Below are positions 20,999-34,826 of a stretch of DNA of 64,000 nt, piece after piece. Below the pieces are notes generated by a model. The model searched no databases, was not told where the DNA came from, and saw nothing but the letters and a program-made list of their open reading frames with translations. The first letter of the stretch is position 1; each line of letters starts with the position of its first letter. The position numbers and the translations under genes are program-made. Source of the DNA: Candidatus Obscuribacterales bacterium (GTDB lineage: Bacteria > Cyanobacteriota > Vampirovibrionia > Obscuribacterales > Obscuribacteraceae); contig JAKFUT010000317.1 of assembly GCA_021732565.1 (NCBI GenBank), positions 1-64,000 of the forward strand, given 5' to 3'.

Positions 20999-21955
20999 TC
21001 ATGCCGTTTTAAGAAGCAAAGCGAGTTGATTGGAGAGCGGAAAGCCGACTGCATCTTCGATCCAGAGGAATTGCCCCTGTGGATTTATCTCAAAGAAAAA
21101 TGGACAATCGCTACTGTCAACACACAGATCGATGCACCCGAAGACCAAGCCCATTCTCTCCATCAGGGCCAGAGTACACTCTCTCAACTTGCCGCTAACG
21201 TCAAATCTTTCCGTTGGTACGCTGTAGTCCAGTCTGAAGTCTACATGTCCCCGTCCGCTTTGAGACATGATTCTGGCACCGAAGATTTCTTCTCCGATCA
21301 CGGTAAGACGCACATCGAATTTCTTGGGTATTCTTCTTTGAAACAGGTGCAGAGCTAACTCAACCGAATCAAACTCGTTTATATCCTCTTCTGTAAGCAA
21401 CGTAGTAAAAATTCCAGCAGGATTGTGGTGATTCGGCAAAACAGCGTTAGTAGCTTCATCTATCAGCTTATAGATAACTTCGCGATTATTCAATTCGAAG
21501 AATTCACGAATTGCGGCGGGAGAATTGGTTACTAGAGACTGCGGTACACGAAACCCGCACTCCTGTGCCAGCTGTAGCTGCTGCAACTTTAGCAGAGCCT
21601 CTTCCTGGGCGCGTGGATCGTTTACCTTGAAGCACGGCAGTGCTCTTATCATCGCCTGCAACGCTCGGGTTGACTCCTTCTGACAGAACGACTCAATCCA
21701 CCTCTCTGGAGCAGGCAGCGCTCTAACTGTGCCGACACGACGAAACCACACAGAATCAAAAGAACAAAAATCGAGTTCATTTTCGCTGGATTTCACGGTC
21801 AGCGAGCCAATGTCAGGACGAAAGACAAGCGACTGCTCATATAATAGATATTGAGATTGCCAGATTTCGACCCCACAGCCGAGCTCCAATAAACACCGCT
21901 GAACAGCACGGACATGGACGTCAGCGGGATCGCCCATGATAAGAACTTTAGCCAT
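20999..21955 (-). CDS. ATP-grasp ligase, graspetide (microviridin-type) maturase-like
   Basis: 318 residues from the ATG at 21955 (the frame is open back to 22051). ATP-grasp enzymes of this type join side-chain carboxylates of a precursor peptide to Ser/Thr/Lys side chains, giving macrolactones or macrolactams. Features that fit are an N-terminal pre-ATP-grasp domain ending in SVWFRRVGTVRAL (W70-R73, the WxRR-like motif of this family), IYKLIDE with K163 for ATP binding, KKFDVRLTVIGEEIF (211-225), and the metal-binding end of the fold with D276 and FEINPQGQFLWIE (E289, N291). All catalytic positions I can judge are present. It starts seven bases after the stop of a 63-codon ORF on the same strand. 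A glutathione-synthase-like or amino-acid ligase role is the alternative. Confidence 0.82.
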   Translation of the reverse strand: MAKVLIMGDPADVHVRAVQRCLLELGCGVEIWQSQYLLYEQSLVFRPDIGSLTVKSSENELDFCSFDSVWFRRVGTVRALPAPERWIESFCQKESTRALQAMIRALPCFKVNDPRAQEEALLKLQQLQLAQECGFRVPQSLVTNSPAAIREFFELNNREVIYKLIDEATNAVLPNHHNPAGIFTTLLTEEDINEFDSVELALHLFQRRIPKKFDVRLTVIGEEIFGARIMSQSGRGHVDFRLDYSVPTERFDVSGKLRECTLALMERMGLVFGCIDLCVDSSDCPFFFEINPQGQFLWIEDAVGFPLSNQLALLLKTA

Positions 21956-21962
21956 GGCGGAG

Positions 21963-22154
21963 TTACTCGCTCTGTTCGATGTCACTAACATCACACCGAG
22001 GATCCGAGTGCATACGCCAGTTTCCAGACATAAGCCTGAAGACCGGAGCATCGCTCTTTTCTGCTCGCCACCACTGCTTCACAATGAAGGGCAAAGCCTT
22101 ATACACTCTTGAGCTATAATTCGTTTCATCCGAAATGTCTCTTTCGTCTGCCAT
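21963..22154 (-). CDS. Small ORF, candidate precursor peptide of the adjacent ATP-grasp ligase
   Basis: 63 codons, ATG at 22154 preceded six bases upstream by AGGAAG (22166-22161 on this strand), stop seven bases before the ATP-grasp start. The first half is helical-looking and contains YKALPFIVKQWWRAEK (residues 18-33). The LPF followed by a hydrophobic/aromatic helix recalls, loosely, the PFFARFL recognition helix of microviridin leaders. The last 15 residues (49-63) are rich in Ser, Asp and Glu with one Cys (C54): S50, D51, D55, S57, D58, E60, S62, E63. That is the residue mix expected of a core cross-linked by an ATP-grasp enzyme. No homologue is recognised. The main doubt is that only 14 bases separate its ATG from the start of the divergent PqqD gene. 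Confidence 0.5.
   Translation of the reverse strand: MADERDISDETNYSSRVYKALPFIVKQWWRAEKSDAPVFRLMSGNWRMHSDPRCDVSDIEQSE
22115..22120 (+). promoter_or_regulatory. Possible -10 box of the PqqD-like gene
   Basis: A perfect TATAAT stands about 49 bases before the chosen GTG start of the PqqD-like gene. No convincing -35 hexamer is visible upstream. It falls inside the small ORF read on the other strand, so the two transcription units would overlap at their 5' ends if both are real. Confidence 0.33.
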
Positions 22155-22168
22155 TGGAGTCTTCCTGC

Positions 22169-22456
22169 GTGTTGATTGGGTTTCCGGTTCGCAACCCCGA
22201 GTTAAAAACCAAACTGCTGCCAGACGGGCACGTGGTTGTGTTTAACGATAGGACTTTATGGGCACATATCCTAAGTCCGTGCGGAGCAGCCATTTGGGAA
22301 TTTTGTGATGGAAGGCACAATCTTGACTCAATTCTGGACGAGTTGGAGTCACTAACAGGAAGTCGACCACCGGCTCAAGAAACAGAAAAATTCCTGGCTG
22401 ATCTTGTAACAAGTGGATTAGTGGTCAACAATGGCAAATCCTATGGACTGGAATAA
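22169..22456 (+). CDS. PqqD-family RiPP recognition protein
   Basis: About 95 residues starting at GTG 22169, with GGAG nine bases upstream; a TTG at 22109 is a longer, less likely start. The fold signature is clear: KLLPDGHVVVFNDRT (strands of the winged helix), then ILSPCGAAIWEFCDGRHNLD (residues 34-53, the LSPxGAxIWxxxDG hallmark), helix ILDELESLTG and C-terminal KFLADLVTSGLV. PqqD-like proteins bind leader peptides and present them to modifying enzymes. In polysaccharide loci they occur with HPr-kinase-like proteins, as here (27424). It heads a plus-strand run with a 64-residue peptide next in line. Confidence 0.87.
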   Translation: MLIGFPVRNPELKTKLLPDGHVVVFNDRTLWAHILSPCGAAIWEFCDGRHNLDSILDELESLTGSRPPAQETEKFLADLVTSGLVVNNGKSYGLE

Positions 22457-22699: not shown

Positions 22700-23947
22700 T
22701 TGAATAAGTTTGCCATTATTGCTCTTGACGGTCTGGGACTGCAAGAGCTTGATCGGTTGGCGGAGTTTTCCACATTCCTGGCGGGAATCAGGCGAAATTA
22801 TGTGTTTGCCCAAACAGAATCGAACATTTTGTCCAATACTGCCACAGGATGGGCAACTCTTCTAACCGCACTTGACTGGCCAGATCACACTTGTAGCGGA
22901 TTTGCCAAACCGGTTAGGAGTTTGCTTAACCTCCAAGTAGTTGATGAAAGGCAGCTTCCTCAGAAAAGTTTACGACTGTTGGGACAGACCGCTTCCAGGG
23001 AAACAATGCTGATCAATATTCCCCTCGTCTTGCCCGGCGACCGAATTTGGTTATCCGACGGAACGGTTCCGGTGCAAACACGCTTCAGTCCAGAGCTCCT
23101 ATCAAAGAAACATCCAGAAATCAACAGCTATCAACCATGTGGATGGCTGAACTGCAACAAGCCTCCTGTAGAGCTGCTTCGGGAAGCGATTTCAACGGAA
23201 ATCTTACGACTGCAACTGGCTGCTGACCTAACCCAGTCGCAACGACCCGCTCTCTCGGTGGTCAGAGCGGCTATATTCGACGTGGCCGGTCACCTTATTG
23301 GACCACAATTTTACTCGCGGAAATTTCAGGTGGAATTGAGTTCGATCGGCCACGCATTGGATGCACTGGCTCATGCATTGAAGTGTGCAGATATGATTGT
23401 CCTTATGATTTCCAGTTACAGTTTCGAAAATTGCCTGCAAGTTGTAAACCTCAACCACCTTCTTGCAGGTGGCGGGTTTTGCCGAATGAGCCCTCACTCA
23501 AGAACAGCCCGCATGATCGCGCTGGAGGGACTTGGCAACAGACACGCAAGATGGACGATCGTACCATCGAAATCCTCTGCATATTCTCCCACCCATGGAA
23601 CGGTGTATCTCAACAGGAAATCCCGTTATGACGATGGAACAGTGTGCGAGAGCCAGAGCAGTTCACTGGCAGAAACCATCTTGAACTACCTTACCACTGT
23701 CTGCGAACAGCGATACGGGCTGGACTTTTCGGGTAAGACATATCCTCAAAGCGATCTGCCCGATGTCGCATTCCGACTTAGGGGCGCCGATTACACTTGT
23801 AGCGACAATGCAGATCCTTTCGACCGGCCGGCGGGGGTGCACTGCCCACGTGGCTTTCTGGCATTTCCGCCGGGGCTGCGGAATCTAGACAAAGAGATGG
23901 GGCTGTGTACTGCTGGTCAAAAATTGTGCCAGGCAGTAGAGGGTTGA
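22700..23947 (+). CDS. Alkaline-phosphatase-superfamily (type I phosphodiesterase-like) protein, probably inactive
   Basis: 415 residues, TTG start three bases after the peptide gene. Fold markers of the nucleotide-pyrophosphatase/phosphodiesterase branch are FAIIALDGLG (D10, first metal ligand), NTATGWATLLTALDWPDHTCSGF (nucleophile region, T47), FDVAGHLIGP (D194, H198), VVNLNHLLAGGGF, AYSPTHGTVYLNRKSRYDDG (294-313) and a C-terminal GVHCPRG with the last histidine. Where the family has S-D-H-G-F, this protein reads S-S-Y-S-F (238-242), so an Asp and a His metal ligand are both missing. It should fold normally but probably cannot catalyse with two metals. A role as a glycan- or nucleotide-binding partner of the peptide module is possible. 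Confidence 0.75.
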   Translation: MNKFAIIALDGLGLQELDRLAEFSTFLAGIRRNYVFAQTESNILSNTATGWATLLTALDWPDHTCSGFAKPVRSLLNLQVVDERQLPQKSLRLLGQTASRETMLINIPLVLPGDRIWLSDGTVPVQTRFSPELLSKKHPEINSYQPCGWLNCNKPPVELLREAISTEILRLQLAADLTQSQRPALSVVRAAIFDVAGHLIGPQFYSRKFQVELSSIGHALDALAHALKCADMIVLMISSYSFENCLQVVNLNHLLAGGGFCRMSPHSRTARMIALEGLGNRHARWTIVPSKSSAYSPTHGTVYLNRKSRYDDGTVCESQSSSLAETILNYLTTVCEQRYGLDFSGKTYPQSDLPDVAFRLRGADYTCSDNADPFDRPAGVHCPRGFLAFPPGLRNLDKEMGLCTAGQKLCQAVEG

Positions 23948-27423: not shown

Positions 27424-28167
27424 ATGCCTGAAGCTGTTCTACTGGGCGAGGCCACGGCTCGACTGCAAACAACCGTTCAAATCGATCTGCTACGTGAATG
27501 CTTCCAATTTCGAGAAACGGAAGCTAGTCCGGTCTTTGAAATAGCCTCTGATGACATCTATTGCTTAATCGATACCCTGATCGACCAGGCCTACGGGAGA
27601 CACCAGGACTTGATATATGTGGATGCTGCTACGCTGGTTTCCCTTGACGGACGTTCCATCATGATTGCTGGCGCTTCCGGTCGAGGTAAAACAACTACGG
27701 CGCTGGCACTGTGCCTTCTTGGCGGATTGCGTTTTGTTTGTGAAGATATCTCCATGGTCGATTTTCCTCGCCAGGTCATTCTCAACTTCACGGCGCCCCT
27801 GTCCATCCGCCAGAACACACGCAGCTTACTGGTTGAGTGCGGGCTACCTGCTCCAGAATTGATTGGTGATCGCTGGTATCCTTGTCGCAATCTTTTTTTG
27901 GACACAAATCTAGATCTGGGAGCCAACCTTGATTTTGTCTTCTTTCTGGACTCCCCCGGTTGCGAATCAGAACCGCTGAGGTACCACCGTATATCGGCAG
28001 CACAATCGCTTCGCCACTTGCTTCCAATATCTAATCTGCTCCTTCACTCTAACGCCTGCGATCAGATGCATGATAGTTTGCGGCACTCGGACATATTTGT
28101 TTTGAGCGCAGGAAGTCTGAGGGAACGAGTGGACTTTATACTCGAGCGTTTGGCCGATTCTGTATGA
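27424..28167 (+). CDS. HPr kinase/phosphorylase-like P-loop protein
   Basis: 247 residues. A P-loop GASGRGKTT (83-91, K89) follows two beta strands (YVDAATLVSLDGRSIMIAG). GGLRFVCEDISMVDF gives the acidic residue (D108) that replaces the DD motif of true HPr kinases. The HPr-binding N-terminal domain and C-terminal helix of HprK are missing, so this is one of the HprK-related kinases seen beside PqqD-like proteins in exopolysaccharide and lasso-peptide loci. In the latter, relatives phosphorylate a precursor-peptide serine. Its substrate here is unknown; the short peptide at 22503 is a candidate. The stop overlaps the next ATG as ATGA (28164-28167). Confidence 0.82.
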   Translation: MPEAVLLGEATARLQTTVQIDLLRECFQFRETEASPVFEIASDDIYCLIDTLIDQAYGRHQDLIYVDAATLVSLDGRSIMIAGASGRGKTTTALALCLLGGLRFVCEDISMVDFPRQVILNFTAPLSIRQNTRSLLVECGLPAPELIGDRWYPCRNLFLDTNLDLGANLDFVFFLDSPGCESEPLRYHRISAAQSLRHLLPISNLLLHSNACDQMHDSLRHSDIFVLSAGSLRERVDFILERLADSV

Positions 28168-33488: not shown

Positions 33489-34826
33489 ATGCAAGTAAAA
33501 ATCGCCAATATGCAAATCTTTCAACCACTACATTCTAGTTTACCAGCCTCGTCACGAGTGATACTCAGCCTTCTTTGCCGAAATCGCTCCGCTGCGCAAA
33601 GCGCGCTTTCAAAGCTCGTCACACCAGCCCTGGTGGCAACCCTGAAAGACGAAATTGACAAGAGCGGTTTCTCACTTTTCATTCTCGACCTCATTCATGA
33701 ACTCAACCTGGAGCCTGAGCTAGCAGCGCTACCCGGAGAAGCGGGAACAATAATGTGGCTGCGAAGGCTCGCCGCTGCTGATTCTCTCGCACAGCACATC
33801 AAAGCCGAAACGGCTGTGAGTGTGGCCGCTGTACTGAATGGTCTTCCCTGCGTATTTGTGAAGGGAATTGTGATGGGACGGACACTATATGAAAAGCCGA
33901 GCCATCGCCTTTCATACGATATCGACTTGGTTGTGAAAGCGACCGCGTTACCGGAGATCATGAAACGGCTGGAAAACCTGGGATACCATGCAAACTGGAC
34001 GGGGGACTGCCATCAGACCGACATTGGCCCCTGTGATTCTCTTGAAGACGTGTCTCTTGTTCCGCAAGAAGAGCTAGACTATTTCTTCAGCTTTTCCATG
34101 AGTTGCCAGGGGAAGCCCTCCGTGGAATTCAAGTCGAACCCGCTCGACACGGGGTTGAAGATGCGCGAGTTGGATCGTTTCTTTCTTACCGCTGAGCTAC
34201 TTGATGATGGCATAACAAGCCCTGATTCCATCGATCACCTCATGCTGCAGCTCATGCATTTTCATAAGGACGGCCTGGGCGGTTGGCGTTCATTGTACGA
34301 CCTCAACCTGCTTTGCAATGAAGTTACCGCAAGAAAAGGGTGGCCGGAGTTTTTCAGACGCTCAAGCGTGGAGGGAATTGAAACAAGTTGCTGGCTCGGA
34401 CTTTCGGTAGTTAGCGGGCTCTTCACGACCGCTGTACCTCACGACGTCATGAAAGAAGCGGCACGCACGGTTAAATTTCCGCGACTTCGCCCGATCGCGG
34501 CAGCATGTTCGCCTGAATTCGTCTGGCACAAGCGCAACATTTTGGGGCTTCTCCTGAACAGCGTTCTGCTTGGCGACACCAGGCGCAAACTGCGAATCAT
34601 GGCTGGTTGTCTCTTTCCGTCCAGACACTTCCTGTCAAGCTACTATGCCAAAGGCCTCCCTCTTACTGCACTAACCGTTGTATTGTTACTATTCTGGCAC
34701 TGGCTTGTGTTCCTTTTACCAGGCGGTGTTTTACGGCGAACAGTTGGTCCGAGTATCTGGGGCAAAAACAGCAAGCCAACGACGGAAACTCTGGTAAAAC
34801 CTGAGACCATGGACAATCAAACTTGA
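33489..34826 (+). CDS. NTP_transf_5 nucleotidyltransferase-fold protein (first copy)
   Basis: 445 residues. The catalytic region of the uncharacterised nucleotidyltransferase family (PF14907 type) is visible: LPCVFVKGIVMGRTLYEKP (K125, G126), then SYDIDLVV with the paired metal ligands D144 and D146. A helical domain follows, with the family HxxKDG-like segment MHFHKDGLGGWRSLYDLNLL. The C-terminus has one long hydrophobic stretch (LTALTVVLLLFWHWLVFLLPG) that could anchor it to the membrane. Family members occur with HPr-kinase-like and PqqD-like proteins in glycan and lasso-peptide loci. In some lasso pathways a relative acts after the kinase. The substrate here is unknown. Confidence 0.82.
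   Translation: MQVKIANMQIFQPLHSSLPASSRVILSLLCRNRSAAQSALSKLVTPALVATLKDEIDKSGFSLFILDLIHELNLEPELAALPGEAGTIMWLRRLAAADSLAQHIKAETAVSVAAVLNGLPCVFVKGIVMGRTLYEKPSHRLSYDIDLVVKATALPEIMKRLENLGYHANWTGDCHQTDIGPCDSLEDVSLVPQEELDYFFSFSMSCQGKPSVEFKSNPLDTGLKMRELDRFFLTAELLDDGITSPDSIDHLMLQLMHFHKDGLGGWRSLYDLNLLCNEVTARKGWPEFFRRSSVEGIETSCWLGLSVVSGLFTTAVPHDVMKEAARTVKFPRLRPIAAACSPEFVWHKRNILGLLLNSVLLGDTRRKLRIMAGCLFPSRHFLSSYYAKGLPLTALTVVLLLFWHWLVFLLPGGVLRRTVGPSIWGKNSKPTTETLVKPETMDNQT

Follow-up and report, generated by a model that had tools for sequence, protein, structure and literature searches.

A Candidatus Obscuribacterales (Melainabacteria) MAG encodes a 63-residue protein, here called P, directly before an ATP-grasp ligase of the graspetide-synthetase type, and P is very probably the starting material for an undescribed peptide product. 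With a probability of roughly 0.7, we read P as a precursor and the ATP-grasp protein as its dedicated crosslinking enzyme, which would dock on P and form side-chain bonds within it, with further tailoring by the products of a surrounding cassette and a role for the product in the cell envelope. On sequence comparison the pair is best read as a new graspetide-type family, an earlier listing under a survey group number being possible. An earlier note on this DNA had proposed that the two genes form an undescribed RiPP pathway; linkage, selection and ligase family support that proposal, the crosslinking itself being inferred.

Results

Layout of the locus

The window (the whole 64-kb stretch of DNA analysed) is an exopolysaccharide locus, with genes for a Poly_export/SLBB protein, a sugar transferase, group 1 glycosyltransferases and a Wzt/ABC-2 exporter, which bears out the earlier placing of the pair inside a polysaccharide locus. 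The small minus-strand ORF, its AGGAAG motif with the spacing described and the ATP-grasp gene were likewise all confirmed on the sequence (Table 1), and just 7 bases (ctccgcc) separate the stop codon of P from the ligase ATG. The starts of P and of the PqqD-family gene lie about 15 bp apart on opposite strands (22154-22172), so that their promoters would have to sit within the opposite genes.

Table 1. Features of the P locus, with coordinates in the 64-kb window.
Feature	Coordinates	Strand	Evidence
Large repetitive exported protein, 1418 aa	16670..20926	-	sequence; locus comparison
Graspetide-synthetase-like ATP-grasp ligase, 318 aa (ATG at 21955, stop codon 21001-20999)	20999..21955	-	HMM, PDB matches, fold, tree
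Small protein P, candidate precursor peptide, 63 codons (ATG at 22154, TAA at 21965-21963)	21963..22154	-	orthologue alignment, purifying selection, leave-one-out HMM, predicted helix
Ribosome-binding site of P: AGGAAG, 6 bases (actcca), ATG	22155..22166	-	sequence
PqqD-family (RRE) protein, divergent from P (start GTG 22169 or TTG 22172)	22169..22456	+	PF05402 E=3e-7, above cut-off
Small protein T, 64 aa	22503..22697	+	locus comparison
AP, type I phosphodiesterase / alkaline-phosphatase-superfamily-like protein	22700..23947	+	PF01663 E=2e-8, above cut-off
HprK-like kinase, Walker A GASGRGKT	27424..28167	+	TIGR04352 E=2e-5, below cut-off
PF14907 nucleotidyltransferase	33489..34826	+	PF14907 E=3e-18

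P is a conserved coding sequence

Sixteen orthologues of P were identified in the order, in 11 of its 53 genomes, and at each the ligase is present or truncated by a contig end. The earlier note had named a frame broken or absent beside orthologous ligases as grounds against the pair, and had called for a measure of codon-level conservation. The frame is open in 15 aligned orthologues and in one more at a contig end, and pairwise dN/dS lies well below 1, at 0.06 (L034/L036), 0.09, 0.11, 0.16 and 0.21 (window/L022), with a maximum of 0.26 among the pairs for which dS could be estimated, many being saturated. Substitutions are concentrated at third codon positions (4508, versus 3615 and 2972), and the alternative frames of the orthologues are interrupted by stops. 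A leave-one-out HMM, built from the 14 other members without the window copy, matched the P frame at E=1.4e-11, with no other match at E values up to 10 in all six frames of the 64 kb; no model in Pfam or NCBIfam matched any member of the family above noise. While P is short and shows no conservation over its first 20 residues, as might befit a chance frame or a functionless 5' remnant, we reject that reading as having next to no likelihood, given the 16 open orthologues, the low dN/dS, the third-position bias, the stop-broken alternative frames and the leave-one-out match.

P consists of a leader-like helix and an acidic core

Alignment of 15 orthologues revealed conservation in two blocks, one a leader helix (PFFLRAWWLR), the other a core (WSxxSDPxCD) at the C-terminus. 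They are preceded by 20 variable N-terminal residues and separated by a linker that varies in length and sequence; the mean majority-residue frequency of the columns is 0.86 in the helix, 0.68 in the core and 0.38 in the linker. Judged by its sequence, P with these two blocks has the make-up of a leader plus core. The leader block reads [LV]PFFLRAWWLR[DN] across the family and LPFIVKQWWR in the window copy (residues 21-30), with P22, F23 and W28 invariant. The LPF of the earlier note (21-23) is thus in place, and the helix that it set at 21-33 is predicted at 23-31 in an AlphaFold model whose overall pLDDT is only 57. The leader agrees with the Phhx(1,2)h signature that Makarova 2022 (PMC8939145) drew from known graspetide precursors, its proline-hydrophobic-hydrophobic motif being on a predicted helix; ThfB recognises RPFG, a PF-containing tetrapeptide (PMC13003496).

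The core reads WSxxSDPxCDxxxxD in the family and NWRMHSDPRCDVSDIE (residues 45-60) in the window. D51, P52 and C54 are invariant (D51 in 15/15 aligned orthologues), and S50 and D55 are kept in 14 of the 15, both being missing from L035 (ADPLCQ). Conserved acceptor (D51, D55) and donor (S50) residues are therefore at hand, few in number and none in a described motif, together with C54, which is not a usual donor. This invariant Cys of the S-D-P-x-C-D core is a feature that the earlier note had missed, while its description of the last 15 residues as rich in Ser, Asp and Glu matches the 8 counted in HSDPRCDVSDIEQSE. Unlike the cores of many RiPPs, that of P hardly varies. A GG-type cleavage site and a C39 peptidase/transporter are common, though not universal, in graspetides; the window copy contains no GG doublet, and no C39 exporter was noticed among the window ORFs examined.

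P and the ligase occur together

Close relatives of the ligase (E<1e-60) are found in 10 of the 53 genomes of the order, all ten of which also have P (Fisher p=6e-10 over the 53 genomes, a statistic that ignores kinship among them). In the additional P genome, G050, the contig ends 160 bases away from P and cuts the ligase down to a fragment. A single gene is inserted between P and the ligase at two loci (L029 and L033). One ligase of the same clade (L031, G035:C144) has neither P nor cassette genes in its vicinity; its genome also contains three complete P-ligase pairs. Among 386 genomes of the phylum, P had a convincing match only in its own genome, the others being weak and partly stop-broken, and neither P nor cassette genes were found at 70 distant ligase loci outside the order. 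In a search of 84,980 genomes, the single ligase as query returned no matches and the ligase alignment recovered the order together with distant relatives. Distance-matrix correlation of P with other genes was uninformative, since all genes correlate.

A recurring cassette surrounds the pair

An aspect missing from the earlier note is the setting of the pair in a cassette. Comparison of 15 P loci revealed recurring content, namely AP, T, PqqD, HprK-like kinases and PF14907 nucleotidyltransferases, in varying order and strand. AP is found at 16/16 P loci and at none of the loci with T and no P; T accompanies P at 15/16, the exception (L036) ending soon after. At L030 and L032, T, AP and PqqD lie on the other side, and rearrangement with content kept at these loci and at L029 and L033 argues for functional linkage. 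Four HprK-like genes of one cluster stand within a single cassette at both L030 and L032.

The kinase assignment is weak in the window: the HprK-like kinase matches TIGR04352 at E=2e-5, with a Walker A motif present. PqqD matches TIGR04353 weakly, at E=1e-3, below cut-off. Kinase and nucleotidyltransferase lie 5-11 kb from P, and the 11 kb to the latter makes its membership of the cassette less sure. On the same strand, 72 bp past the ligase gene, lies the gene for the large exported protein, which has relatives following the ligase at L023 and L025 and is a possible operon member; it matched nothing in Pfam or NCBIfam. We identified neither a peptidase nor a dedicated exporter at the cassette.

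In 5 other genomes (G005, G019, G023, G026, G038), T, PqqD and HprK-like genes are present with no P, ligase or AP, and paralogous sets without P are found in the source genome (L178) and in a sister genome (L180, L181). The set in the source genome (L178:9376-12003, contig C178) comprises PqqD, T, HprK-like and PF14907-like genes, with no P or ligase. P, ligase and AP therefore seem to form a smaller unit attached to a broader module, and the two halves may be separable.

The T sequence has a conserved R-x-x-F motif, a hydrophobic stretch, an ILDKFLVxPAxA segment (AxA-like cleavage site) and a variable Ser/Thr-rich tail, and so looks like a small exported peptide bearing a Tat-like signal peptide. 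Three tandem copies of T stand beside PqqD and an HprK-like kinase, with no ATP-grasp ligase, at L174:9259-10170 and L175:6816-7639; such triplets occur in G005 and G038, and their conserved front and variable Ser/Thr/Pro tail look like a RiPP-type precursor array. T may be a second, exported peptide substrate. This raises the question of whether P might instead be a small partner whose PF helix activates or recruits the ligase, with another protein, such as T or the large exported protein downstream, as the substrate. Conservation of P extends through both blocks and takes in the C-terminus, as expected of a partner; T has a variable tail and occurs in tandem copies, as RiPP precursors typically do; and partner-dependent graspetide synthetases are described (PMC13097080). 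However, T lacks a PFhL motif and is found in at least 5 genomes without the ligase, and P has a leader and then an acidic core in the usual order, directly before the ligase, so that we regard the partner role as unlikely.

The ligase is a graspetide-type maturase

The ligase belongs by HMM, structure and tree to the graspetide-synthetase family with a pre-ATP-grasp domain. Its best NCBIfam matches are TIGR04187 (7e-56, 189.6 bits), MvdD (3e-43, 148 bits) and MvdC (5e-39, 134 bits), followed by grasp-with-spasm (3e-21) and RimK (2e-12, 47 bits). It scores below the curated cut-off of every NCBIfam equivalog, which suggests a new subfamily, and just below that of PF21068. A profile of the 16 ligase orthologues found 6 PDB sequences up to E=1e-6, all of them graspetide-type ligases, with MdnC at the top (4e-66). 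The AlphaFold model (pLDDT 92) has the MdnC-MdnA complex as its best Foldseek match (E=1e-28, TM 0.87; RimK, 1e-16).

The WFRR, ATP-binding Lys and EIN metal site that the earlier note had read in the sequence lie at residues 70-73, at Lys163 (in VIYK) and at 289-291. Across the 16 orthologues and five solved graspetide-type ligases 22 positions are invariant, including W70, R72, K123, R216, D239, R241, E289 and N291, the metal-site Glu and Asn among them. The tree unites the 16 orthologues in a clade of their own (93/100), outside that of MvdC/MvdD/MdnB/MdnC/CdnC (100/100); since the RimK outgroup consists of a single very long branch, neither the rooting nor the exact sister group is secure. 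Clustering with non-peptide ATP-grasp enzymes, named beforehand as grounds against the pair, was thus not seen: by HMM, Foldseek and tree the ligase groups with peptide maturases, and a RimK-type or other non-peptide identity is rejected on HMM scores, the PDB profile search and Foldseek.

These comparisons also bear on whether the ligase adds an amino acid or small molecule to P, by RimK-like tailing or pheganomycin-like ligation, with no ring closure. ATP-grasp enzymes of related folds do so, PGM1 joining a peptide to a non-protein amino acid (PMC8939145), and RimK is the next structural family in Foldseek; yet the macrocyclases MdnC, CdnC, MdnB and PsnB match the ligase far better than RimK in both sequence and fold, which makes simple addition very improbable.

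Comparison with known systems

Microviridins (graspetide group 1; MdnA with MdnC and MdnB, MvdC/MvdD) resemble the P locus in their small precursor adjoining an ATP-grasp ligase, proline-hydrophobic leader helix, ligase fold and active-site residues. They differ in having two ligases, where the P locus has one on a separate branch of the tree, and a TxKxPSDx[DE][DE] core in place of SDPxCD, and they lack its PqqD, HprK-like, nucleotidyltransferase and phosphodiesterase neighbours. Membership of the microviridins is rejected on the core and on the position of the ligase outside the MvdC/MvdD clade. The TIGR04187 (GRASP_SAV_5884 type) maturases, with PruB of Streptomyces coelicolor (PDB 9BOU), are the best NCBIfam match over nearly the full length, but the ligase reaches only about half the curated cut-off of 350 bits and P is unrelated to that precursor by any model.

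Nearest outside the order by similarity search are ligases of Chloroflexota, Planctomycetota, Acidobacteriota and Pseudomonadota (L055-L114; 30-36% identity), which resemble ours in having an upstream protein with a PFhL motif. Unlike P, this partner is a long protein with PF[VI]LSTPHH, and no cassette genes lie nearby. At L055, L056, L057, L061, L065, L066, L068, L071, L075, L080, L082, L086, L090 and L114 it lies directly upstream of the ligase, in stop-to-stop frames of about 200 to 1200 codons with PF[VIA][LM][AS]TPHH in the C-terminal part; several end in a coiled-coil-like tail, and repeated units rich in D/T/K/E come after the motif at L059 and L064. These proteins may be substrates or partners of the adjoining ligase clade.

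A PqqD-like RRE, an HPr-kinase homologue and a nucleotidyltransferase, clustered together, phosphoglycosylate some lasso peptides (PMC8498205). The P locus shares these three genes with the phosphorylated and phosphoglycosylated lasso peptides (paeninodin, pseudomycoidin) and has an ATP-grasp ligase in place of the lasso cyclase; neither a lasso cyclase nor a B2 (transglutaminase-like) protease was found among the window ORFs scanned. The HPr-rel-A system of NCBIfam (TIGR04352 kinase, TIGR04353 PqqD) likewise pairs an HprK-like kinase with PqqD in polysaccharide loci, although matches to it here are all below cut-off and P, ligase and AP are additional.

Makarova 2022 (PMC8939145) gives 18 associated families for graspetides, and Carter 2026 has 43 graspetide groups, with phosphotransferases mentioned in two actinobacterial ones. 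The main texts of both surveys (PMC8939145, PMC13097080) mention no PqqD neighbour, HprK-like kinase or PF14907, and our search of the literature on Obscuribacterales or Melainabacteria RiPPs found no relevant description. Together with the lack of a TxKxPSD motif and of any model for P, the silence of those main texts supports the earlier view that this is not a known class.

Discussion

If P is the precursor, its PF[FIV]L helix would dock on the ligase's middle subdomain, in the way that PFFARFL docks in microviridins. The next step, modelled on MdnC and ThfB, would be phosphorylation of a core Asp by the ligase with ATP, followed by attack of a core nucleophile on the acyl phosphate, forming at least one side-chain bond within WSxxSDPxCDxxxxD at a cost of 18 Da each. 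The preferred pair would be Ser50 to Asp55; the joint loss of both residues in L035 hints at it, as a single and weak case. AP, always found with P, and the PqqD, HprK-like kinase and nucleotidyltransferase set may belong to the same pathway, the latter probably acting on exported T, and possibly on P, in the manner of lasso peptide phosphorylation and glycosylation. The product would probably serve the cell envelope or the exopolysaccharide made by the surrounding genes.

Graspetide synthetases are reported to tolerate changed nucleophiles and to be able to form thioesters with non-native substrates (PMC13097080, PMC12291112), so that the invariant Cys54 stays a candidate donor. In a bolder version, which we think decidedly unlikely, the reactive unit would be the invariant D51-P52-x-C54, giving a native thioester (thiolactone) between Cys54 and Asp, and the PqqD, HprK-like and nucleotidyltransferase proteins would phosphoglycosylate that product or T, joining a ribosomal peptide to exopolysaccharide. 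Such a compound would be the first natural thioester graspetide.

Should the precursor reading hold, it would add a family of graspetide type from the sister lineages of cyanobacteria that do not photosynthesise, one with an invariant core Cys and a gene set so far known for decorating lasso peptides. It provides a testable pair of precursor and ligase, obtained from sequence alone, and a lead on the function of the PqqD, HprK-like and nucleotidyltransferase set that recurs in polysaccharide loci. The near-invariant core of P would then point to a fixed cellular role rather than to a diversifying weapon.
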